This document shows, piece after piece, positions 6,196-17,752 of a DNA stretch of 49,154 nucleotides (positions are counted from its first letter, which is position 1; the number at the start of each line of letters is the position of its first letter). A program made the translations under genes and the position numbers. Source of the stretch: an uncultured Lachnospiraceae bacterium (GTDB taxonomy: Bacteria > Bacillota > Clostridia > Lachnospirales > Lachnospiraceae); NCBI GenBank assembly GCA_947629565.1, contig CANREG010000018.1, positions 1 to 49,154 on the forward strand. The letters are read 5' to 3'. Under the pieces are notes generated by a model that saw nothing but the letters and a program-made list of their open reading frames with translations, searched no databases and was not told where the DNA came from.

Positions 6196-7221
6196 TTACT
6201 CTGTCTTTTCCTCATAAGTCTGCTGAAAAATCTGCCGCTTAATCACATAAATATCAGAAAAATCTTCCGGGCGGATTGCCATATAGTCTCCGGGCCGCCC
6301 CAGATAATAATCTGTATTATTCCCCACGGGAAAAATCTTTGTCCTGCGCTGCAATTCCTTAGCATAGATTCCGGCGCCGGCCTTGGGATAACACAAATTG
6401 GCGGATTCATCCAGACTGATATACTCGCCAGTTGACATAATCTGGGCTTCCGGCAGAAAATCCAACATCTGCTCAAACACATCCAACGCCTCCTCACTGG
6501 CGTCATAGGTCCGCTCAAATTTCTCCCGTTTCATATCATAGACCTCGCCCCGGCAGCCAATCATAATATAGATATCCGGATCCGCCTTTACCACAACGCC
6601 GGACTCATTTTCCAGTGAACGGATACAAATTTCCTCCCCTTTTTCGGCCAGCTTCATGGTCTCCACAAAGGCCCAGGGGATTTTCTTTTTCACATACTGC
6701 TTCATAAACGGAATATCTCCTTCGTGCGTCCGCCCATAGTCCGCAGCTTCAATATATTCACATTCTTCAAAATATCCCGCCGCCTTATTCATCAGATATT
6801 CCAGAGTATCCTGTATTTCCAATTCGGACATTTCTACCTTTAAAATGGCAGAGGAAATCCGTCCGCAGGCCGCCTGGGCATCGCCCTTTACCAGACCGGA
6901 TTCCGGCATGACAAAATCCAGAAATTCCAAAGCCCGCAAACGTCTCGTATCACTGAAAAAACAAATCCTGTCCTCCTCCTGCTCCTTCCAGAACAGCAGC
7001 AGATAATGACAATCCAATGTCTTCATATACTCCGCATAATCAAATATTTTGTCGGCGGAAAAATCTGTCTCTAACATCCGGTTTGAAAGCTCTCTGTAGA
7101 TTTCCTCCTCAACTCCGGCAATCCACAAGCCTTCCTTCTCATAATAATATCCCACAGTAAATCCGGGCAGATTGACATTTTCCTGTTTTTCAAATCCATA
7201 TTGTCTCATGTCTCTTACCAT
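6196..7221 (-). CDS. Protein of unknown function, last gene of the TIR/cyclase operon
   Basis: A 341-residue acidic soluble protein with no recognised domain, signal peptide or membrane segment. It is rich in Tyr and Glu and has alternating alpha/beta character; the C-terminal half reads GAGIYAKELQRRTKIF and GDYMAIRPEDFSDIYVIK, resembling a PGDY-type segment in which a modification or cofactor state is checked, but no catalytic motif is evident. It is the most distal gene of the minus-strand operon that starts at 11978, separated from the small membrane gene by 11 bp. Two starts are possible (7221, or the Met at 7209); an AAGGAAG lies very close to the first. Function unknown. Confidence 0.75.
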   Translation of the reverse strand: MVRDMRQYGFEKQENVNLPGFTVGYYYEKEGLWIAGVEEEIYRELSNRMLETDFSADKIFDYAEYMKTLDCHYLLLFWKEQEEDRICFFSDTRRLRALEFLDFVMPESGLVKGDAQAACGRISSAILKVEMSELEIQDTLEYLMNKAAGYFEECEYIEAADYGRTHEGDIPFMKQYVKKKIPWAFVETMKLAEKGEEICIRSLENESGVVVKADPDIYIMIGCRGEVYDMKREKFERTYDASEEALDVFEQMLDFLPEAQIMSTGEYISLDESANLCYPKAGAGIYAKELQRRTKIFPVGNNTDYYLGRPGDYMAIRPEDFSDIYVIKRQIFQQTYEEKTE

Positions 7222-7232
7222 CTTCCTTCTTA

Positions 7233-7427
7233 TTATGATTTTAAATTTTTAATATTAATAAACAAATTTAACGATGTTAGAAACATACAAATACACCCAC
7301 CTATAACACATGGATAGATATTTTGTAATTTTCCTACCAAATACAACAATGATATTATGAAAACAGCTATCCCACTCACACACTGTAATATTGAAATTCC
7401 AATTATTATTTTATTCTTCTGCTTCAT
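7233..7427 (-). CDS. Small two-helix membrane protein
   Basis: A 64-residue hydrophobic protein made of a short Lys-rich start (MKQKNKIIIG), two transmembrane helices (about 8-30 and 37-58) and a Lys/Asn tail. The start at 7427 is preferred to an in-frame codon 15 nt upstream because GGTGAGG lies at a good distance. The surrounding DNA is more AT-rich than the flanking genes. It lies between the nucleotide cyclase and the unknown 341-residue protein on the same strand. No family recognised. Confidence 0.6.
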   Translation of the reverse strand: MKQKNKIIIGISILQCVSGIAVFIISLLYLVGKLQNIYPCVIGGCICMFLTSLNLFINIKNLKS

Positions 7428-7515
7428 AATAATCCTCACCATACTTTCTTATTATTTTTTGTATCAACAATTTAATTTTAATCATTTACCTATTATAGTC
7501 TGTTTTTTATCACAT

Positions 7516-9126
7516 TTATTCAGGCAGTATTTTATTTGCAAATTTCTGGAAGCTCCGGCTTACATGGGTAAAATGCAGGACTGCTTCCTTTTCCCTAATG
7601 TCAACCACTTTGGCGTATACCCCGTTGAAAAATGCCTTTCCCTCTCTGCCAGCTGCAAATACCTCCACATCAGCATAAAGCTCCAACCGGCCATGCGCCG
7701 CTACAGGATTATTCGGTTCTTCTGCCGCTAACTCCTCCACCTCATAACCGGCTTCCGGGTTTATCGGCGCATAATCTGTCTCCGGCTGTCCGTAACCGGT
7801 CTCAGATTCCGGCAGTAAAGTTACCACGGCGCGCTTTCTGGAAAACTGGGACAGCACCGCCATAACCGGCTCCTCCGCCACAGTCTTTTTTTCAATGGGA
7901 TACAGGTTAAAGACCGTCCATTCCGTTACCGGCTTTAACACATCAAAATCTACATTCTCGATTCTGCACTGATAGTCGCCGCCAATGCCTACCACCTCAC
8001 CGACGGAAATCGGCTTATGCACTCCCTTGGCTGCAATAAAAATCCGATTATGCACTTCCACAGAGCAAGAAATGGTATCTAACGCCTGTTTGGAAACCAA
8101 AATCTGTCCCCCCACGCTATAGCCCTCAATCCGGGAACATTCATTGACTGCCTGTCCGATTACACTATATCTCATCACTTTTTCCGAACCAACATTGCCA
8201 ATAAACACTTCTCCCCAGTGAATCCCAATTCCCATTTCCAATGACGGATAGCCCCGTTCTTCACAATAGGCGTTGACCTCTCCCATACAATTCTGCATAT
8301 TAATCGCCGCCGCCACTGCATCTGCAGTTTCATTTTCTGAGACTAACGGTGCGCCGAATACGGCCAGAATCCCATCGCCCAAAAACTCAATAATGGTTCC
8401 TTTGTATTTTGTGATAATATCGACCATTTTACTGAAATGAAAATTCAAAAGCTGGGTGACTGCCTCCGGCTCTAATTCCTCGGAAATGGAAGTAAATCCA
8501 CGCAAATCCGCCAGCATAACCGCCAGTTTCTTTTTCTCGCCGCCAATTGCCGCCCCCTCCGGGTGCTCTAAGATAAATTCCAGAACCTGGTCGGAAAAAT
8601 ATCGTCCAAACACCTGATACAAAAGCTGATTTCTTGATTCTAATTTCTGGTTCAGCCGCACGATCTCCTTAGCGGCCTGCAAATCCATAGCCTGCTTTTG
8701 CAGTACCTTTTCATAATTCCTTGTCACATCATGCTGCCAAGCCACCTGCTCGATTCTTAATATGGAGGCGCGGGAAAAGGGTTTCTCCACCACCACCATA
8801 CCGCCCCGGAGAAAGCATTGTTCATCCACTTCCTGACTTCTCTCCCCAATCATAAAAAAGAGGGGAACGCCTGCTAAAAACTGCTGCATTTTCAGAAAAG
8901 ACACCGACTGGAAGTCCTCCTCCACAGCCGTCTGGTAATCCATAATCACCAGGGAGGGCATACTATCACCGATTGCCGCCTCCTGACTGCTATTTTGTAC
9001 CGCGCGCTTGACCGCCGCAAAGGATAGCATACAAAGAGCACGCATACTGCCGGTGGAATTAATCCTGCGCTGCGCCTCTAACATTTCTCTTCTGTCGCTT
9101 CCAATTACCCAAATCTGCTTTTCCAT
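7516..9126 (-). CDS. Receiver-like domain fused to class III nucleotide cyclase
   Basis: A 536-residue predicted signalling enzyme. Residues 1-130 look like a response-regulator receiver (LVIMDY with candidate phosphoacceptor D63; EKPF with K115). A helical linker (135-175) leads to a class III adenylate/guanylate cyclase catalytic domain (~197-378). The metal-binding aspartates are D207 (ADLRGFTS) and D251 (FLGDG); the transition-state pair N328/R332 lies in AVNECSRIE. The purine-selecting position, usually Lys in adenylate cyclases, is Glu (E247 in TIIEFLGD) as in guanylate cyclases, and the partner position is Ser (S321). The last ~150 residues hold a Glu/Pro-rich linker and a small beta-rich domain not recognised. 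ATG at 9126 has CCGGAG 8 nt upstream and is preferred to a GTG at 9135. It follows the TIR gene by 30 bp. Confidence 0.9.
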   Translation of the reverse strand: MEKQIWVIGSDRREMLEAQRRINSTGSMRALCMLSFAAVKRAVQNSSQEAAIGDSMPSLVIMDYQTAVEEDFQSVSFLKMQQFLAGVPLFFMIGERSQEVDEQCFLRGGMVVVEKPFSRASILRIEQVAWQHDVTRNYEKVLQKQAMDLQAAKEIVRLNQKLESRNQLLYQVFGRYFSDQVLEFILEHPEGAAIGGEKKKLAVMLADLRGFTSISEELEPEAVTQLLNFHFSKMVDIITKYKGTIIEFLGDGILAVFGAPLVSENETADAVAAAINMQNCMGEVNAYCEERGYPSLEMGIGIHWGEVFIGNVGSEKVMRYSVIGQAVNECSRIEGYSVGGQILVSKQALDTISCSVEVHNRIFIAAKGVHKPISVGEVVGIGGDYQCRIENVDFDVLKPVTEWTVFNLYPIEKKTVAEEPVMAVLSQFSRKRAVVTLLPESETGYGQPETDYAPINPEAGYEVEELAAEEPNNPVAAHGRLELYADVEVFAAGREGKAFFNGVYAKVVDIREKEAVLHFTHVSRSFQKFANKILPE

Positions 9127-9156
9127 TATCCACACTCCGGACCTATATCATTTACT

Positions 9157-10155
9157 CTACAACCAGGAATGCCATGCGCCGGTCCTGTCATTCTTCATCC
9201 GAGCACCTGAAGCCGCCTTACACTTATCACACAGCGTACCGGTTCTGATTGGCGCCCCGCACTGCTGGCAGGATACCCGTATAGGTGAATTTTTGGGGAT
9301 TTCCAAATACTCGTCCCTGAAAAAATATTCTATAATCCTTCTGGGTACTCCCGTATCCCGTTCAATTACAAGAGCTGAAGCGGCTCCCGCCTTTTCTAAA
9401 TAATTGCGGATAGTCTGAAAATCATCATAGTTATCCTTCCCGCAGCGTTCGCACTGAAAAGTGCCCCTTGTCACATTGAGCAAATCTTTACAGCCGCAAT
9501 ACTCACAGGCCAGAGGAATCCGGTTCATCCGAAAAGCATTGGACTCTCTACCCCGGTTTTGGATTGTCCTTCTCGTGTTCTGCGTCAATCCTTCCCCGCT
9601 GCCAACCGGTCTTTTGTCCTTATTCTTATCCAAATTGCCGTTCATTTTGTTCTTTTCCGGATTGGCTCCTACTTCATCCCTTTCCGGACTGCCGTTTATT
9701 TTTTCTCCTTTGGCAGATGTCTCCGACTCCCCGTCTACCGGTAAATCGACGTCCGGCAATAATTGTTCAAGCTGTTTCCGCAAATCAGAAAACGCCCTTA
9801 CCGGATTATTATAGTAGGAAACCATCTGCACATTATTCAGATAAAACCGAAATGTCTCATTTAGCGCCATTTTCTGAATCTGAAACGGTATAATCTTCTT
9901 CCGGTTGCAGATTGCGCTGTCAATCTCTTTTTCAACCCAGATGGAATCCTGGGAAGTGGGGGAAAGCACCAGCAAAAACACATCACAATTCTGAATCGCC
10001 AGAGGTATCTCCCTTGCATAGCTGGAGCCTGCCGGTATCATCTCCGGCGCTTTCCAGTATCCAACCCCCATCCGTTCCAGCTCCTCGGTAATACGACGGA
10101 CAAATTCTCTGTCTTTTGAGCTATAACTGATAAATACGGAATTCTGCTCTGTCAT
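9157..10155 (-). CDS. TIR-domain protein with HTH and zinc ribbons
   Basis: 332 residues. Residues 6-130 are a TIR domain: FISYSSKD at the start, then WVEKE, where E77 is the candidate catalytic Glu of TIR NADases. A low-complexity linker rich in Asn, Lys and Glu (140-205) follows. The C-terminal part carries a Cys4 zinc ribbon (C217/C220 or C222, and C235/C238), a helix-turn-helix-like segment (DTGVPRRIIEYFFRDEYLEI) and a second CxxC/CxxC ribbon (C296, C299, C309, C312). This HTH-plus-ribbon tail resembles the YvyF/TIGR03826 flagellar-operon type domain. The start at 10155 is favoured because GGGAGG is 7 nt upstream; the ATG at 10161 abuts it. It lies between the diguanylate cyclase and the class III cyclase. 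Possible roles: NAD-consuming effector or signalling scaffold; neither is shown. Confidence 0.88.
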   Translation of the reverse strand: MTEQNSVFISYSSKDREFVRRITEELERMGVGYWKAPEMIPAGSSYAREIPLAIQNCDVFLLVLSPTSQDSIWVEKEIDSAICNRKKIIPFQIQKMALNETFRFYLNNVQMVSYYNNPVRAFSDLRKQLEQLLPDVDLPVDGESETSAKGEKINGSPERDEVGANPEKNKMNGNLDKNKDKRPVGSGEGLTQNTRRTIQNRGRESNAFRMNRIPLACEYCGCKDLLNVTRGTFQCERCGKDNYDDFQTIRNYLEKAGAASALVIERDTGVPRRIIEYFFRDEYLEIPKNSPIRVSCQQCGAPIRTGTLCDKCKAASGARMKNDRTGAWHSWL

Positions 10156-10177
10156 ATTCATTCCTCCCTGACAGTCC

Positions 10178-11185
10178 TTATCCTTCTGCTACTACGCGGT
10201 TTCGCCCGCTTCTTTTTGCCTCATAAAGCCGCAAATCTGTAAATTCAATATTGGCGCTGATTGGCTGCTGCGGGTCAATCTGGCGCACACCGAAGGACAT
10301 CGTCACCTTAATATCCTGTCCTTCAAAATGACATACCGAATCCATGATTTTCTTTCGGATATTCTCCGTCCGACGGGCAGTTTCTTCCTCGGTATGCTTC
10401 AGAAATAACAGCAAAAATTCTTCTCCGCCCCATCTGGCAACCTCACCGTCTTTTCCTACGCCTTCCTTCAAAATCTGCGCCACATGCTTTAATATGACGT
10501 CGCCTCCGTTGTGGCCGTAAGTATCATTCACCTTTTTAAAGAAATCAATATCGCACATAACAAAGGATGCGGTCTCGGTCTGTAACCGTTCTTCCACAAA
10601 ATCCCCAAAATAATTAAAAAATCCACGCCGGTTCTTTAATCCGGTCAGCGGGTCCTCTGTGGATTCCCGATACAACATATCTGATTCTAAAGTTTTCGCG
10701 CTGAATACAGCCACCAACGCCAAATGCTTTACATCCTGATCGTCAAATCCGCTGTTCTCATCTTCTCCCAATTTGTTAATCGCCTGATAGGCGCCAATTA
10801 CCTCGCCTCTTGCATTCGTTACCGGCATGCAGAGAATGGATCGAGTGACATAACCGGTTTCCTTATCCACCTGCGGATTAAAGCGGGAATCCTCATAGGG
10901 ATTGTTAATCACAATAACCTCCTTGGTCGTTATGGAAGCGCCTACAATTCCGCTCCCCTCAGGCACCGTAATCCGTCCGCTATCCGATGCGGCTAACGTC
11001 CAGTATTGGTGTTTGCCCTTATCCCAATACCAGAAGGAAGCCCGTTCCGAATTAACAAGTGTTCTTCCCAAATCCGTCAACAGCCGGATTGTAGCGTCAA
11101 ACTCCTTCTCATCCACCAACTGGTTCATATAATAAAATATTTTCTCAAGCATTTCCTCTGCCTGCATAGGTTTCCTTGTCTCCAT
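10178..11185 (-). CDS. GAF-GGDEF diguanylate cyclase
   Basis: 335 residues that should make cyclic di-GMP from two GTP. A GAF sensor domain occupies about 25-165 (GSGIVGASITTKEVIVINN and MPVTNARGEVIGAYQAINK are typical). The GGDEF domain follows from 175: DPLTGLKNRRGF, MCDIDFFKKVNDTYGHNGGD, the active-site GGEEF at 253-257 and YEAKRSGRNRVV at the end, all intact. The upstream inhibitory RxxD site is not present in canonical form (VGKD), so product feedback may be weak. No membrane segment. GGAGGAG sits at a good distance from the ATG. It begins 1 nt after the isomerase-like gene ends and precedes the TIR gene by 22 nt, so the three are clearly co-transcribed. Confidence 0.95.
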   Translation of the reverse strand: METRKPMQAEEMLEKIFYYMNQLVDEKEFDATIRLLTDLGRTLVNSERASFWYWDKGKHQYWTLAASDSGRITVPEGSGIVGASITTKEVIVINNPYEDSRFNPQVDKETGYVTRSILCMPVTNARGEVIGAYQAINKLGEDENSGFDDQDVKHLALVAVFSAKTLESDMLYRESTEDPLTGLKNRRGFFNYFGDFVEERLQTETASFVMCDIDFFKKVNDTYGHNGGDVILKHVAQILKEGVGKDGEVARWGGEEFLLLFLKHTEEETARRTENIRKKIMDSVCHFEGQDIKVTMSFGVRQIDPQQPISANIEFTDLRLYEAKRSGRNRVVAEG

Positions 11186-11186
11186 A

Positions 11187-11978
11187 TTATCTCCTCCGCT
11201 GTATCATTTCTTCAAAATTCTGCTCTAAATATCTTAAGGACCGCCGCTGGTTCTCCGGCAGAGTCGTCTCAATCAACACACTACAGGAATCAAAATACTG
11301 TCTCCGGTAATCCATAAAACGCTGCCAGTCAATCTGTCCGTCTCCTAACGCTAAGTGCTGGTCCCGCTTCAGGTTGTTATCATTAATATGAATATGCCGG
11401 ATATAGGGCGCTAACGCATCTATCCATTCCTGCATCGGGGTAGGAGAAATGCTGGCATGCGCATAGTCAAAACATATCCCGTAATTATCATAAATGCGCA
11501 GCCGCTCTGAGACAGCAGTCAAAAAATCCGGATCCGTATCAAACATATTCTCCAAGTAGATATCAGTATCAGGATAACGCTTTAAGAGACATTCTAAAAA
11601 CTCCACTGTCATTTCTATAGCCCGCCGATCGTATTCCACACCGGACAAAACCGGACTGATGTTCGTGTGGAACACCACGCCTTTCACGCCTAAGCGCACA
11701 GCAATCTTCATACTCTGTTCCATACGGAATTCAGAAATTTCCCGGATTCTGGGATCATAGCTGAACACTACAACATCGAAAAAGGCTCCATGCATGGTGC
11801 TTCCCTCCGGAAGTCCGATCTGCTGATAAAATTCCACCAGACGGTTCATCTCCTCTGTATCTTCTAATATCTCCGGATTATAAAAATCGTTAATTTCAAA
11901 ACCAACGCCATATTCTTCCGCAAGTTTTTGATGTTCTTCAATCTCCTGCTTGCGAACGACAATCAATAATTGTCCCAT
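11187..11978 (-). CDS. Sugar phosphate isomerase/epimerase-like TIM-barrel protein
   Basis: A 263-residue protein of the xylose isomerase-like TIM-barrel (AP endonuclease 2) superfamily. Characteristic strand-end residues can be seen: FHTNISP, YLENMFDTDPDF, GICFDYAHA, HIHINDNN and SVLIETTLP, supplying the Glu/His/Asp metal ligands usual in this fold. The substrate is unknown; relatives are sugar isomerases and epimerases or endonuclease IV. It is the first gene of the minus-strand second-messenger operon, downstream of a strong promoter at 12029-12057, with AAGGGGG before the ATG. Association with GGDEF and cyclase genes is unusual for this family. Confidence 0.88.
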   Translation of the reverse strand: MGQLLIVVRKQEIEEHQKLAEEYGVGFEINDFYNPEILEDTEEMNRLVEFYQQIGLPEGSTMHGAFFDVVVFSYDPRIREISEFRMEQSMKIAVRLGVKGVVFHTNISPVLSGVEYDRRAIEMTVEFLECLLKRYPDTDIYLENMFDTDPDFLTAVSERLRIYDNYGICFDYAHASISPTPMQEWIDALAPYIRHIHINDNNLKRDQHLALGDGQIDWQRFMDYRRQYFDSCSVLIETTLPENQRRSLRYLEQNFEEMIQRRR

Positions 11979-12028
11979 ATCCCCCTTTTTCCTCCCTGTT
12001 CCGCATTACATGAATGCCTAATAAATGT

Positions 12029-12057
12029 ATTATACTATTTTTTATGCCACAAATCAA
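12029..12057 (-). promoter_or_regulatory. Promoter of the isomerase-GGDEF-TIR-cyclase operon
   Basis: Read on the minus strand: TTGATT (12057-12052), 17-bp spacer, TATAAT (12034-12029). This is the only strong promoter seen ahead of the six tightly spaced genes from 11978 down to 6196. Confidence 0.75.
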
Positions 12058-12216: not shown

Positions 12217-15200
12217 TTATTTCCCAACCGGTTCATATACTGCTTCGTACATTTTACCCATATCTTTCCAAGTAAAGGTAATGGTTTTGCTAGCTCCTTC
12301 TACCATTGCCTTAGTCTGTAAATCTCTCCAACCTACAAACTGATAACCTTCCGCAGGTTCCGGAGCGGTAATGGTAATCTTATTCTGCTTATCTACATCA
12401 TAACTCTCTACCTCACCACCATCACCGGTAGACATAATTGTTGTTTTCACTATGGCTGCATACTCATTATTCCCACCGTAGGTTATCCAGCCGTCTCCTA
12501 ATTTAACATGAGCCAGACTATCTACCTTTGCAACAACAGCCCATACCAGACGGTTTTTAATCCATCTGTTAACCGGGCAGCAATTCTCTACTTCCCCATA
12601 GTTATCATTCCCATAATAATGCTGCCACCATCCGCTATTCGTACATTGGGCTGTAGTGTGATCTTCATTTATTTCCCATTTATGGCCGTTACCGTTCTGG
12701 ATATTAATCAGCCTCTTAGCCTTACATCCAGCATTTTGACAACCCTCGTAAATCAACCTGAATGAACAGTTTTCGTTCACCTCATTATCACCAACCACTT
12801 TTCCGGTTCCTTCTGTTCCCGGATTTTCCGCAATGTTGGATGATGTAAGAGCAACTTCATCTGCATCATAAGCGTAAGCTGGCCCGCCCCATTTATGACC
12901 GGTTGCAGGAATTGTATAGCTGGTATTTTCATATCCGCAATCTTTACATGTTACCGTTGCCCTCCCCGGTTCTTCACAAGTTGGCTCTTTGGTAATACTT
13001 TCATTATCAAAGTCATATTTATGACCCTTTGCCGAAATGATCTCCTCCTGTGTAAGTCCGCAATATTCACACGTCTTTGTCCTTACTCCCCATGAAGTAC
13101 AGGTCGGTTCTTTGGTAACGACAGACTCTCCAAAAGAATGGTTCGTTCCGTCAGAAGGAATCACATCTGTCTTCTTACTGTCACAACGAGAACACTTTAT
13201 GGAGCGCAGACCAGTCTCTTTACAGGTCGGTTCTTTCTCAACCACCCATTCCCCGCTGCTGTAGTCATGCCCTAACTTCTTCTGCGTTACAACTACATCC
13301 TTCTTCTCATGGCAACGAGTACATTCTGTAACTGTGTATCCATCCGTTGTACAGGTTGCCGGTACGGTAACTTCCTTCCAGTCATGACCTAATGGCCTTG
13401 CCGGTTCCCCATTCTCCTCCTTGATGATATGGAAAAATACCTGACCGCAATTTTCACATACAGAATATTGCTTGCCATAATCCGTACAAGTAGCCGGCTG
13501 CAAAGTGGTCTTCTTTAACTGATGTTCCGGAGCCGGCATATATTCTCCCGCCTTCTTGCCGCAAACCTTACAAATCTTTGACCAATATCCCGGCGCTGCA
13601 CAGGAGCATGGCTCATTGTCAACATACTGGTGCTCGCCCGTAGCCGGAATCACTTCTGTCTCCCTGCTGTCACAGCGGGAACACTTTCTTGATCTCTGCC
13701 CCGGCTTACCACAGGTTGCTTCCTGATCTATTACCCATTCGCCTGAATAATCATGACCTAAGGCTTCTTCCACTGCCAATGCGTCTTTCTTCACATGACA
13801 ACGGGTACACTCCGTTACTGTATAGCCTTCTGTGGTACAGGTTGGCTCTATACCTTTCGTCTCCCAAGCATGGCCTAAAGGCTTCTCTTCAGGGATTGTA
13901 TTAAAGAATACCTGACCGCAATCTTTACATTCATAATAATCCTTTCCATATCCCAGACAGGTTGCATCCACGTGTTCCGTCTTTACCGTCCTGTGATCCT
14001 TATTGATTGCCTGCCTAACTGCATAACCACATACGGTACACACTCTTTCTTTGTATCCCGGCTCCTTACAGGAAAGCGCCTCCTGCTTTACAACCCACTC
14101 TCCGAAAGTATGCTCTTTCTTTGTGCCTGCCTTAGTACGGGTATCTGTCTTATCGCAGCGGTCACACTTCGCTGTCTCGGTTCCATCCTTTGCGCAGGTG
14201 GCATCGTCATTATATACATAATTTGTAAAACTATGGCCCAATGCCGGAATAGACTCTGTCTTCCCCACATAACCACAACGGGAACACTTGCCATCTAAGT
14301 ATTTCCGGCCCGTTCCTGTACAAGTAGGCTCAATGGTTGCCCACGGCTGCATATCATGCCCGAGAGCGTCTATTGTTTCGGTGTCTACTGCCCCGCAGAC
14401 GGAGCAAACACGCTCTTTGCTGCCCGGTACCGTACAAGTTGCTTCTGTCTTCGTTACCCAGTCTGCAAAACTGTGGGGTTTCATTGTTCCGCTGGCAGTA
14501 CGGGTGTCCGTCTCTTCGCAACGGTCACACTTCGCTGTCTCGGTTCCATCTTCTGTACAGGTTGCATCTCCGTTATATACATAATTCGTAAAGCTGTGGC
14601 CTAATGCGGAAAGAACTATTTTTTCTCCCTCATAGCCACAACGAGAACATTTGCCACCATTGGTAATTCTTCCATCCTCTGTACAGGTCGGTTCAACAGT
14701 CTCTACTCCCTGCATATCATGGCCCAAAGCCTCTATTACTTCGGTCTCCACCGCACCACAAACAGAACAAATATGTTCTTTGCTGCCTGTTTCCTCACAG
14801 GTTGCATCTACCTTAACCTGCCACTCGCCAAAGCTATGGCCTAATGCAGAACCAACCTTCGTGCGAGTATCCGTCACATCGCAACCGTCACATACGGCAG
14901 TTTCTGTTCCGTCTTCCATACAAGTCGCATCTTCATTATATACATAATTCGTAAAGCTGTGAGTATGCTCTGTCCTTTTGGGTTGTTCCGGCTTTTGGGA
15001 TTGCGCCGACTTTCCAGGTTGCTCTGTCTTTTGAGACTGGTCCATATCCTCAATCTGTTCTGTCTCTTGAGACTGCTCGGTTGTCTCAGGCTGCGCATTC
15101 GCATCACTGTTTTTTACCTCTTTTTTAAGAAGCTTGCTATAAGAATTCTCTTTCCCCTCCGGAACCTCTACCGTTGCCTCCGCAGCAATTCCTTTAAGCG

Positions 15201-15627
15201 CATTCTTTCCAACCTTTACAAGCTTTGTACTTTCGATATCAATTTCACTTAACTTCTTACAGCCGTTAAAGGCATTTTTCCCAATCTTCTTTAACTCGGT
15301 ATTGGTTGTCACGGATGTCAGCTTCTTATATCCCTTAAATGCATTGTTGCCAATCTCCGTCACCGTAAAGGTACATCCGTTCTTTTTAACCGTATCCGGC
15401 ATCTCCACAACCGCCAGTTTCTTGGATTTGGCGCCAATCAGGGAAACTGTACCTGATTTCTCTGATACGGAAACCACCTTATAACGATACTTTCCGCTGG
15501 TAAAAATACTGCCTGTCTTCACACCGGTTATGGCTGCATTGGCAGGTATTACACCGCCCCCAAAGACAGTGCCAATTACCAGTGCGATTGTCATGATGAT
15601 AGAAATGATTCTCTTTCTCAATCTCAT
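12217..15627 (-). CDS. Secreted LRR protein with ~17 Cys/His modules
   Basis: 1136 residues. A signal peptide occupies 1-32 (Lys/Arg start, hydrophobic core, PANAA cleavage region). Residues ~38-150 form a short BspA-type leucine-rich repeat region (VTEIGNNAFKGYKKLTSV, LKKIGKNAFNGCKKLSEI). A Gln/Glu/Ser linker (175-220) follows. Residues 221-913 hold about 17 modules of 36-46 residues with the pattern TC-x(8-11)-C-x2-C-x(~12)-GH. The C-terminus (1075-1133) resembles an InlB B-type/Flg_new beta domain (ITITAPEPAEGYQFVGW). No LPXTG or cell-wall repeat is visible, so it is either released or held by another means. Likely an extracellular surface or adhesin-like protein; function unknown. GGGAGGAG precedes the ATG. 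Confidence 0.85.
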   Translation of the reverse strand: MRLRKRIISIIMTIALVIGTVFGGGVIPANAAITGVKTGSIFTSGKYRYKVVSVSEKSGTVSLIGAKSKKLAVVEMPDTVKKNGCTFTVTEIGNNAFKGYKKLTSVTTNTELKKIGKNAFNGCKKLSEIDIESTKLVKVGKNALKGIAAEATVEVPEGKENSYSKLLKKEVKNSDANAQPETTEQSQETEQIEDMDQSQKTEQPGKSAQSQKPEQPKRTEHTHSFTNYVYNEDATCMEDGTETAVCDGCDVTDTRTKVGSALGHSFGEWQVKVDATCEETGSKEHICSVCGAVETEVIEALGHDMQGVETVEPTCTEDGRITNGGKCSRCGYEGEKIVLSALGHSFTNYVYNGDATCTEDGTETAKCDRCEETDTRTASGTMKPHSFADWVTKTEATCTVPGSKERVCSVCGAVDTETIDALGHDMQPWATIEPTCTGTGRKYLDGKCSRCGYVGKTESIPALGHSFTNYVYNDDATCAKDGTETAKCDRCDKTDTRTKAGTKKEHTFGEWVVKQEALSCKEPGYKERVCTVCGYAVRQAINKDHRTVKTEHVDATCLGYGKDYYECKDCGQVFFNTIPEEKPLGHAWETKGIEPTCTTEGYTVTECTRCHVKKDALAVEEALGHDYSGEWVIDQEATCGKPGQRSRKCSRCDSRETEVIPATGEHQYVDNEPCSCAAPGYWSKICKVCGKKAGEYMPAPEHQLKKTTLQPATCTDYGKQYSVCENCGQVFFHIIKEENGEPARPLGHDWKEVTVPATCTTDGYTVTECTRCHEKKDVVVTQKKLGHDYSSGEWVVEKEPTCKETGLRSIKCSRCDSKKTDVIPSDGTNHSFGESVVTKEPTCTSWGVRTKTCEYCGLTQEEIISAKGHKYDFDNESITKEPTCEEPGRATVTCKDCGYENTSYTIPATGHKWGGPAYAYDADEVALTSSNIAENPGTEGTGKVVGDNEVNENCSFRLIYEGCQNAGCKAKRLINIQNGNGHKWEINEDHTTAQCTNSGWWQHYYGNDNYGEVENCCPVNRWIKNRLVWAVVAKVDSLAHVKLGDGWITYGGNNEYAAIVKTTIMSTGDGGEVESYDVDKQNKITITAPEPAEGYQFVGWRDLQTKAMVEGASKTITFTWKDMGKMYEAVYEPVGK
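12889..14967 (-). repeat. Coding tandem repeats with two super-repeat registers
   Basis: Within the 12217 gene, modules recur in larger blocks. Near-identical DNA segments at about 14138, 14500 and 14865 show a period of ~365 bp (three modules, ~121 residues). Residues 551-705 and 707-830 form a second block type (CGQVFF, then TVTECTRCH, then KCSRCDS). This indicates growth by duplication of three-module blocks. Confidence 0.75.
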
Positions 15628-15909: not shown

Positions 15910-17241
15910 ATGACAAGGGAATATATGGGGGAAACCGTATACGAGGCAGCCAGGCGGCGGCTTAAGTTTCTTTTTGAAGAATTCGATAACATTTACCTGT
16001 CCTTTTCCGGCGGGAAAGACAGCGGCCTTTTATTAAATCTTCTATTGGATTTCCGGGAACAATATTACCCTGACCGGACAATCGGCGTGTTTCACCAGGA
16101 TTTTGAAGCCCAGTATACCGTCACCACAGAATATATAGAACGTACCTTTGAACGGATCCGGGATCAGGTGGAGCCCTACTGGGTATGCCTGCCCATGGCG
16201 ACAAGAACCGCCTTAAGCAGCTATGAAATGTACTGGTATCCATGGGATGACAAGAAAAAGGATTGCTGGGTTCGCAGCATGCCGGATAAGGACTATGTCA
16301 TCAATCTGTCCAACAACCCCATCAGCACATACAAATACAAGATGCATCAGGAGGATCTGGCCAAGCAGTTTGGCCGCTGGTACCGGATGTCCCATGGCAA
16401 CGGCAAAACCGTCTGTCTTCTGGGAATGCGGGCAGAGGAATCCCTGCAAAGATACAGCGGCTTCCTCAATAAAAAATATGGCTATCAGAATGAGTGCTGG
16501 ATCAGCCAGCAGTTTAAAGATGTGTGGTGCGCCTCTCCCCTTTATGACTGGACTGTAAATGATGTGTGGCACGCCCATTATAAATTTAATTATGACTACA
16601 ACCATTTATATGATCTTTACTATATGGCCGGACTTACCGCATCCCAGATGCGGGTGGCCTCCCCGTTTAACGATTACTCTAAAGATTCCTTAAATCTGTA
16701 CCGGGTGATCGACCCGGAAATCTGGGTAAAGCTGGTTGGCCGAGTGCAGGGTGCCAACTTTGCCTGCATCTACGGAAAGACCAAAGCCATGGGCTATCGC
16801 AATGTCACTCTGCCGGAGGGGCACACGTGGGAATCCTTTACCAAATTTTTATTAAATACGCTGCCCGCCAGACTTCGGAAAAATTATATTAAAAAGTTCA
16901 ATTCTTCTATTATGTTCTGGCACAAGACCGGCGGCGGATTAGACGAGGAGACCATACAGGAATTAATCGATCATGGTTACCACATTCAGCGCAACGGAGT
17001 ATCCAATTACACTCTAAGCAAAAAGACAAGAGTTGTGTTTGTGGGGAAAATTCCCGACCAGACAGACGATATCAAGACCTCCAAAGACATTCCGAGCTGG
17101 AAAAGAATGTGCTACTGCATATTAAAAAACGACCATATCTGCCGCTTTATGGGCTTTGGCCTGACAAGGGAACAGCAAAGGCAGATCGACTACATAAAAG
17201 GCCAGTATAAAGGCATTGAGGAGATGAATTATGGCGTATAA
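15910..17241 (+). CDS. IbrA-like PP-loop protein, DUF3440
   Basis: 443 residues of the phosphoadenosine phosphosulfate reductase-like family. The PP-loop SFSGGKDSGLLL (SGGKDS at 33-38) binds ATP pyrophosphate. The downstream region, rich in Trp and Tyr (NDVWHAHYKFNYDYN, MRVASPFNDYSKDS), matches the DUF3440/IbrA type rather than true sulfate-assimilation reductases; the C-terminal ECGLH redox motif of CysH is absent. In E. coli, IbrA acts with the ParB-like IbrB as a co-activator of other genes; the biochemical activity is unknown. It overlaps the ParB-like gene by 11 nt, indicating translational coupling. Start ATG at 15910 follows AGGGGTG. Other PP-loop roles (DndC-like DNA sulfur modification, RNA thiolation) are less likely because dnd genes are absent. 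Confidence 0.88.
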   Translation: MTREYMGETVYEAARRRLKFLFEEFDNIYLSFSGGKDSGLLLNLLLDFREQYYPDRTIGVFHQDFEAQYTVTTEYIERTFERIRDQVEPYWVCLPMATRTALSSYEMYWYPWDDKKKDCWVRSMPDKDYVINLSNNPISTYKYKMHQEDLAKQFGRWYRMSHGNGKTVCLLGMRAEESLQRYSGFLNKKYGYQNECWISQQFKDVWCASPLYDWTVNDVWHAHYKFNYDYNHLYDLYYMAGLTASQMRVASPFNDYSKDSLNLYRVIDPEIWVKLVGRVQGANFACIYGKTKAMGYRNVTLPEGHTWESFTKFLLNTLPARLRKNYIKKFNSSIMFWHKTGGGLDEETIQELIDHGYHIQRNGVSNYTLSKKTRVVFVGKIPDQTDDIKTSKDIPSWKRMCYCILKNDHICRFMGFGLTREQQRQIDYIKGQYKGIEEMNYGV

Positions 17242-17752
17242 AAGTCCCGTTTACAACATTATTGCCGTACCAATCGACAAGATACAGGCAAACAACTACA
17301 ACCCAAACACCGTCGCTCCGCCGGAAATGAAGCTGCTTTACGAGAGCATCAAAAACGACGGTTATACCATGCCTATTGTCTGCTACCATGACAGCAAGGA
17401 AGACAAGTACATTATTGTGGACGGTTTTCACCGCTACCGGATTATGTTAGAGCATGAGGACATCTATGAGCGGGAAGGGGGAATGCTGCCGGTTTCCGTA
17501 ATCGACAAGGAATTAGATCAGAGAATGGCCAGCACAATCCGCCATAACCGGGCAAGAGGAACCCATGATGTGGAGCTGATGAGCAGCATCGTCAGGGATT
17601 TGCACGAATTAGGACGCTCGGACGCATGGATTTCCAAGCACTTAGGCATGGATAAGGACGAAATTCTCCGTCTCAAACAGATTACCGGTCTGGCCGCCCT
17701 TTTTAAGGACATAGACTTCGGACAGGCATGGAAACCGGTGGACGAAGAATAA
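17231..17752 (+). CDS. IbrB-like ParB/Srx-domain protein
   Basis: 173 residues. An N-terminal ParB/sulfiredoxin-like nucleotide-binding domain (10-115) is visible: PIDKIQANNYNPNTV, then IIVDGFHRYRIM, where GFHR (65-68) is at the position of the ParB GxxR box, and RHNRARG (104-110). In ParB proteins this fold binds and hydrolyses CTP. The last ~60 residues (DVELMSSIVRDLHELGRSDAWISKHLGMDKDEILRLK) include a helix-turn-helix-like segment. No centromere-binding or dimerisation domain of chromosomal ParB follows, and no parA is nearby. The 11-nt overlap with the upstream PP-loop gene is the typical ibrA-ibrB arrangement. Confidence 0.88.
   Translation: MAYKSPVYNIIAVPIDKIQANNYNPNTVAPPEMKLLYESIKNDGYTMPIVCYHDSKEDKYIIVDGFHRYRIMLEHEDIYEREGGMLPVSVIDKELDQRMASTIRHNRARGTHDVELMSSIVRDLHELGRSDAWISKHLGMDKDEILRLKQITGLAALFKDIDFGQAWKPVDEE

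Follow-up and report, generated by a model that had tools for sequence, protein, structure and literature searches.

What common task, if any, could bring a TIR protein, a diguanylate cyclase and a class III nucleotide cyclase together in one short run of genes? The question is raised by a contig of an uncultured Lachnospiraceae bacterium (CANREG010000018.1, assembly GCA_947629565.1), of which the whole stretch analysed here, positions 1 to 49,154, is called the window (49,154 nucleotides, nt). Six intact, closely spaced open reading frames (ORFs) lie on its minus strand within 6196-11978, and the short gaps described in an earlier note on this DNA were recovered as 1, 16, 30, 73 and 11 nt from the promoter side onward, with the cyclase starting at ATG 9126 (an alternative GTG at 9135 is possible). 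In that order they encode a TIM-barrel protein, a GAF-GGDEF protein, the TIR protein, the cyclase, a two-helix membrane ORF and a 341-residue protein, called U341 here. We found that five of these genes belong together, as a three-gene core (TIR, cyclase and U341) with an optional head (TIM barrel and GGDEF), and we infer from this that they have a common function. The module, which was likened to the Pycsar systems, was probably misframed by that comparison and is better read as a nucleotide relay of motile Lachnospiraceae.

Scanning one genome per species, we obtained 35 loci that encode a TIR relative, and in 33 of them TIR, cyclase and U341 occurred together; in the other two, the contig ends just past TIR (L030) or a shorter TIR gene stands alone (L035). 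All five genes stood in a row in 18 loci, and a GGDEF relative was present within 400 nt upstream of TIR in 21. Conservation of gene order in related genomes, proposed earlier as a check, was thus borne out for five genes, but not for the set of six, and the refuting outcome foreseen in the same note did not arise. The membrane ORF (69 amino acids, aa; 7233-7442, minus strand) has a counterpart in L001 only, at 97% identity, and lies where G+C drops to 24%, the genes on either side having 46-48%; because of its AT-richness and this single near relative, we regard it as a species-level insertion, excluded it from the system, and reject the suggestion that a small membrane protein accompanies the cyclase as effector. 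Counts on alignments given below include the window protein throughout. Absent from the U341 alignment (A1) are L015, which was not entered, the fused L019 and L028, L023 (at a contig end), L024 (no frame called) and L030 and L035 (no U341); the cyclase alignment (A2) leaves out L019, L024, L028, L030 and L035, and the TIR alignment (A3) L008, L020, L025 and L028. A6 comprises the window protein and 21 GGDEF rows, and A7 the window protein and 15 of the 21 TIM relatives.

Since the genes flanking the cassette differ between lineages, the constant order is not merely a matter of conserved surroundings. Tree distances of the cyclase correlated with those of U341 (r 0.90), GGDEF (0.85) and TIR (0.76), while cassette genes correlated with FliG at r only 0.21-0.64; the cassette genes thus agree mutually and poorly with FliG, which suggests that either the cassette moves between genomes as one piece or it is FliG that moves. 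In addition, cyclase and U341 form a single reading frame in L019 and L028, a third long frame at a U341 match (G451) is of 873 aa, and TIM and GGDEF are one frame in L029. One could still argue that these neighbours have no common pathway and represent two or three modules (TIM-GGDEF; cyclase-U341; TIR) sharing a promoter by chance, as TIM and GGDEF are missing from some loci and the gap between them reaches 1293 nt in L027 (at most 135 nt in other loci). With the core retained despite changing flanks, with congruent trees and with the fusions, we consider such an arrangement very improbable.

The TIR gene (9157-10161, minus strand) encodes 334 residues, in which a TIR_2 domain (E 3.4e-22) is followed by a tail of zinc ribbon, helix-turn-helix (HTH) and zinc ribbon, confirming how it had been read before. 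Glutamate E79 in the motif SIWVEKE is invariant (32 of 32), as required by sequence of an NADase TIR; we assume E79 to be the catalytic glutamate from comparison with SARM1. The closest solved TIR by sequence is the CRISPR-associated Cat1. As for the tail, it matches TIGR03826 (YvyF) at E 1.3e-14 with 54.4 bits against a cut-off of 124.15, making the window protein a relative and not a member, and a match at E <=0.001 was found in 28 of the 32 TIR alignment members, the window included. YvyF has the same zinc ribbon-HTH-zinc ribbon arrangement but stands alone, whereas the window protein is fused to TIR. The source genome also holds a separate yvyF-type gene (L038), flanked by comFC- and flgM-like genes within an order resembling comFC-yvyF-flgM-flgN-flgK (genes named by reading). 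A second YvyF-like protein without TIR is encoded on contig 9 of the same genome (L037, 1492-1959), between sugar-kinase-like and methyltransferase-like genes (again named by reading), and is nearer to the TIR tail than the L038 gene.

This kinship of the tail raises an alternative in which TIR acts as an adaptor and not as an enzyme, its tail binding DNA or protein so as to regulate flagellar genes in the manner of its YvyF relative, and the cyclases giving input. The prevalence of the tail match, the flagellar-type setting of the yvyF-type gene and the link to FliG (below) would all be in keeping with it. However, the invariant glutamate and the motif preceding it are what an active TIR would retain, the last zinc ribbon of the tail is missing in L022, L029, L031, L032, L033 and L035, and we know of no function for YvyF itself, leaving the adaptor, in our estimate, rather unlikely.

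The gene next in line (7516-9126, minus strand; 536 aa) encodes a receiver-like domain, a class III cyclase domain (PF00211, E 9.6e-27) and an additional C-terminal domain predicted to be mainly beta (AlphaFold confidence, pLDDT, 81.5). Of the receiver plus class III cyclase described in the earlier note, the cyclase is clear, but the window protein's receiver match is weak (NCBIfam PhoB, E 8e-5; no Pfam match), although 25 of 31 cyclase alignment members show a Response_reg match at E <=0.5. The metal aspartates D207 and D251 and the transition-state residues N328 and R332 are invariant (31/31), and the base-specifying site is glutamate, E247, in all 31. According to the part of PMC4215837 available, guanylyl cyclases carry glutamate where adenylyl cyclases have lysine; judged by this residue, the cyclase is of guanylyl type, with cyclic GMP as its predicted product. 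The best solved matches are 6fht, then 2w01 (E 6.9e-51), both labelled adenylate cyclase, with K at the key base site in 6fht and E in 2w01. The latter, which we take to be the guanylyl cyclase Cya2 of Synechocystis, would thus be the second-best solved match of the catalytic domain, sharing the guanine-type glutamate with the cassette cyclase; no TIR or U341 partner of Cya2 is known to us. A PilZ domain was considered for the C-terminus given a PilZ-like order of predicted strands and helices, but was dropped because the profiles gave no support: PF07238 is absent from the 22 Pfam families found across the 31 cyclase members, and hhalign probability was 0.9-2.7% (in a comparison from which 5 of 25 PilZ loci were removed, their central frame being not a PilZ protein or not found). 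The sole PilZ match of the source genome at E <=0.01 lies on contig 15 (L039), the contig that also carries FliG, at a distance of ~21 kb.

U341 (6196-7221, minus strand) has no gathering-level Pfam match. A weak PGDYG (PF14083) match, residing at its C-terminal end, was obtained in 16 of 29 U341 members at E <=0.5, the lowest being 0.0003, and the window protein reached 16.0 bits where the gathering cut-off is 27; in the open-licence PMC literature we found no paper for PGDYG or TIGR03826, and YvyF is named one to three times in each of 13 papers. The AlphaFold model is of good confidence (pLDDT 87.9), and comparison with solved structures by sequence gave a single chance-level match (E 2). 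A possible internal repeat, seen by eye, scored 51-60% between halves in hhalign vs. <3% for unrelated pairs and is only suggestive at the level of sequence. The U341 profile also finds a second protein class of ~500 aa, comprising a DHH-DHHA1 phosphoesterase, presumably of the NrnA and GdpP type, and a region alignable with U341 67-333. Of 41 such DHH-U341 proteins, all carry the DHH motif, 40 carry GGGH and 34 the first aspartate motif; U341, in contrast, has no DHH domain, and VKGD occupies the GGGH position in the window. Its residues 172-258 and 259-338 each match all 41 DHH-U341 proteins at E <1e-3, so its C-terminal half, which aligns with that of the DHH-U341 proteins, is securely related to them by profile comparison, and a DHHA1-derived segment preceding it is only suggestive. 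By these alignments U341 is a relative, minus the catalytic domain, of phosphoesterases that are themselves linked to TIR genes.

The latter link emerged from 40 DHH-U341 loci (L100-L139), drawn from 87 listed places (64 + 23), in which a TIR gene directly adjoins the DHH-U341 gene in 24, in several clostridial families (e.g. L100, L104, L133), as compared with 2 TIR genes among 257 non-adjacent genes of these loci. Three loci (L100, L101, L138) had been chosen knowing of a TIR match in the same genome, and adjacency without them was 21/37; L070, which prompted the comparison, was not counted. The TIR profile was seeded with cassette TIRs plus six neighbourhood TIR genes (five from the 40 loci and one from L070) and is thus partly circular; Pfam confirmed TIR_2 in the six DHH-U341-neighbour TIR genes scanned. 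Most of the adjacent TIR genes encode proteins of 833-1088 aa, some with beta-propeller matches. That a U341-type region accompanies TIR genes in two unlike settings is our main reason for proposing that U341 may sense or handle a TIR product, and it makes the DHH-U341 and TIR genes a candidate enzyme pair for a TIR signal. In a class sample of 391 genomes, only low-scoring, DHH-type-like U341 matches were found outside the family. A protein of 514-652 aa recurs both upstream of the cassette (L009, L010, L012) and near DHH-U341 (L070, L109); by reading, it resembles an iron-hydrogenase sensor with a methyl-accepting signalling domain, a possible chemotaxis-like link.

In the optional head, the TIM-barrel protein (11187-11978, minus strand; 263 aa) had been called isomerase-like. 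It is of the AP_endonuc_2 type (PF01261, E 4e-21), resembling endonuclease IV and CbiR with the CbiR and Nfo NCBIfam models below cut-off, and H63, H104, E143, D171, H174, H197, D206, H208 and E237 are invariant in all 16 sequences. These nine residues align with endonuclease IV and MJ1311, eight with 1qtw and the first with 3wqo, at positions that we take to be the zinc ligands of endonuclease IV (Nfo). With this pattern retained, a zinc phosphodiesterase seems more likely than an isomerase. The adjoining gene (10178-11185, minus strand; 335 aa) encodes the GAF-GGDEF protein, an identity upheld by Pfam and NCBIfam, and its GGEEF motif, kept in 22 of 22, is of the GG(D/E)EF form of an active diguanylate cyclase. 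In the GAF domain, NK-x8-F-x3-D (N137-K138, F147, D151) is likewise invariant (22/22), with E after the D in 2 of 22 only. We assume NK..F..DE to be the motif of GAFs binding cyclic nucleoside monophosphates (cNMP), although similar motifs occur in other GAFs too. The best solved match of this domain is 4mcw (metal-dependent phosphohydrolase), followed by 1ykd (adenylate cyclase, presumably CyaB2) and by GAFs of mammalian and cGMP-specific phosphodiesterases, a resemblance to phosphodiesterase and cNMP GAFs from which we predict a sensor.

In what kind of cell does this cassette reside? Of the 35 locus genomes, 34 carry FliG; the one without it, L035, lacks the cassette as well. Among 397 genomes sampled evenly across the family, FliG is present in 210; where the cassette is defined by a U341 match of >300 bits, FliG was present in 9/9 such genomes vs. 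201/388 others (p 0.004), and by genus in 8/8 cassette genera vs. 180/334 of all genera (p 0.007). Another 59 genomes, presumably of DHH type given their lower scores and frames of mostly ~500 aa, have FliG in 51. ThsB-type TIR genes, as a control, show no FliG excess (11/26). Within the window's genus, U341 occurs in 18 of 26 genomes, and a joint loss of cassette and flagella, which we considered, is not a pattern seen there.

Such a distribution has to be weighed against an alternative in which the cassette is an anti-phage defence akin to Pycsar or Thoeris: infection would stimulate the cyclase, its product or U341 would switch on TIR, and loss of NAD+ would stop the cell. Pycsar likewise has a class III cyclase beside a TIR protein, and the ThsB-like TIR_2 domain is shared with Thoeris. 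The invariant glutamate and the nearness to Cat1 would suit an immune TIR, as would an NCBIfam model of the TIR of anti-phage reverse transcriptases, which matches 31 of the 32 TIR members, the window protein scoring below its cut-off. PADLOC PycC models also match the cyclase (best E 6.7e-25), but the match falls mostly on the catalytic domain that such cyclases share and is therefore not discriminating. The available part of PMC11224242 describes a cyclic-nucleotide-binding domain on the PycTIR effector, PycTM as the alternative effector, and in PycC enzymes an aromatic pyrimidine-selecting residue located two positions ahead of the first metal aspartate (F60/D62, F100/D102); Y50 of BcPycC was taken as the equivalent of F60/F100. 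A Pfam scan found no cyclic-nucleotide-binding domain on the cassette TIR, as the earlier note had observed, and among the 31 cyclases the corresponding position, 205, holds M in 24, L in 4 and I in 3. With neither hallmark present, with extra genes in the cassette and with the membrane ORF not conserved, we reject membership in Pycsar, in line with that note's view that the set does not fit this type. From Thoeris, the cassette differs in having no ThsA-like gene among the six, in its other partners, and in the flagellar link that ThsB-type genes do not show.

The genomic setting was no more suggestive of defence. PADLOC was run on 103 flanking genes from 22 loci (four GGDEF relatives left out of 107), and 13 families matched at E <=1e-10: mad3 in 5 genes, AriA in 2 and eleven once each, with type IV DinG (E 4.5e-114), PDC-S27, WYL, ZorD, Cas3c and LeoA among the single matches. 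We read these isolated matches, which a defence function might predict, as scattered or generic, with no consistent defence content, and we reject a defence island on these 103 genes. Plasmids gave no match of U341, and in IMG/VR contigs a relative was confirmed neither for U341 nor for TIR; where the TIR protein does find matches, they are restricted to the TIR domain (7) or to the tail (2) in plasmids and to the tail (4) in phage records. Two unannotated 'Bacteriophage sp.' records do hold a distant U341-like region, but one of them (MT836910, marked unverified) reads as a bacterial contig, with ilvN- and ilvC-like frames by reading, and these phage-record matches are doubtful. Hence, of the signalling or defence module outside known types that was first suspected, the conserved unit and its distinctness from Pycsar stood, while its setting among defence genes did not. 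Because the unit appears mobile between lineages and TIRs commonly serve immunity, we still accord defence some weight; given also how widely U341 is carried within the genus, we judge it unlikely.

Our preferred reading, held tentatively as a fair way short of certainty and perhaps a little below an even chance, is a chromosomal nucleotide-signalling relay of flagellated Lachnospiraceae, with TIR, guanylyl cyclase and U341 as its core and the zinc phosphodiesterase and GAF-GGDEF protein as optional head. The sequences themselves show a conserved unit whose genes have a common history, with cyclase and U341 joined in one protein in some genomes and with the catalytic residues of TIR, cyclase and GGDEF retained; all of the chemistry, and the order in which the signal passes, we infer. 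TIR, steered by its zinc ribbon-HTH tail, would convert NAD+ into a nucleotide signal; U341 would sense this product or TIR itself and set the activity of the cyclase, which, also gated by its receiver-like domain, would produce cyclic GMP. Where the head is present, the GAF of the GGDEF protein may read cyclic GMP, and the cyclic di-GMP (c-di-GMP) made would act on motility or attachment, with the endonuclease-IV-like enzyme removing one of the signals as an off-switch. For the step from cyclic GMP to c-di-GMP, there is a precedent in XC_0250/XC_0249 of Xanthomonas (PMC3770947): in the part of that paper at hand, a class III guanylyl cyclase similarly lies beside a GGDEF protein, and a sensor reads cyclic GMP, linking it to c-di-GMP. 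The sensor there is a CRP-type cNMP domain, whereas the cassette has a GAF; the Xanthomonas cyclase carries tetratricopeptide repeats where ours has a receiver-like domain; and that portion of PMC3770947 describes no TIR, U341 or zinc enzyme with the pair. Our searches of the open-licence PMC literature, judged by titles and abstract openings, turned up no work on this gene set and no precedent for the steps from TIR product to U341 to cyclase.

Several observations weigh against this relay or restrict it. At the second specificity position, 29 of 31 cyclases have N and 2, among them the window protein, have S; the available text of PMC4215837 lists C, S, T, H, A or G in place of D for guanylyl cyclases, a list outside which N falls. 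6fht, the closest of the solved chains, bears the label adenylate cyclase and has K at the key site. U341 residues 62-135 alone match DHHA1 weakly, with E <1e-3 in just 1 of 41. GGDEF is not found just upstream in 12 of the 33 core loci, so the step from cyclic GMP to c-di-GMP cannot be part of the core. With respect to flagella, the window's genus supplies 15 of the 35 locus genomes (identical FliG coordinates), which are thus not independent; FliG is present in 25 of 26 genomes of this genus, and still in 6 of 7 without any U341 match. With FliG near-universal there even without U341, the association is one-way and may in part reflect shared ancestry. Of the 189 Pfam families in the 103 flanking genes, the 25 commonest include none that is flagellar, and horizontal movement of the cassette would suit a defence system too.

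As to the surroundings in the window, the strong promoter predicted earlier at 12029-12057 (minus strand) does exist as a promoter-like site (TTGATT-17-TATAAT; hexamers 10/12), both hexamers of which are retained in L001, the closest relative found, but such sites are not commoner than chance in this region (22 vs. 18.8 in shuffles, standard deviation 4.6). Beyond it, 12217-15627 encodes a surface-type protein of 1136 aa with BspA leucine-rich repeats (Pfam) and many Cys-x-x-Cys-Gly repeats, relatives of which were found upstream of the cassette in L001. The stretch 15910-17749 contains a phosphoadenosine phosphosulfate (PAPS)-reductase-like gene with a weak DndC match, followed by a gene with a ParB-type-like start by reading, which we take to resemble IbrA/IbrB pairs.

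What does this cassette mean for its hosts? Bacterial TIR proteins have been studied mostly as anti-phage weapons, and few bacterial cyclic GMP pathways have been worked out. The role of bacterial cyclic GMP is called poorly understood in the available part of PMC3770947. What is new here is that the cassette goes with flagella and that U341 belongs to a family of TIR neighbours. Going further, we can envisage a TIR pathway serving behaviour, not immunity, in which U341 would be a receptor derived from a TIR-partner DHH phosphoesterase by loss of its catalytic domain and would, in motile cells, link an NAD+ product of TIR to cyclic GMP and onward to c-di-GMP, and in which TIR and DHH-U341 would be writer and eraser of the same signal; taken as a whole, we deem this speculative and improbable. 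If true, a conserved operon of flagellated gut bacteria joining TIR with a guanylyl cyclase, often together with a diguanylate cyclase, would be a testable non-immune case for both fields, and in the DHH-U341 phosphoesterases beside TIR genes there would be a candidate for an enzyme working on what TIR proteins make.

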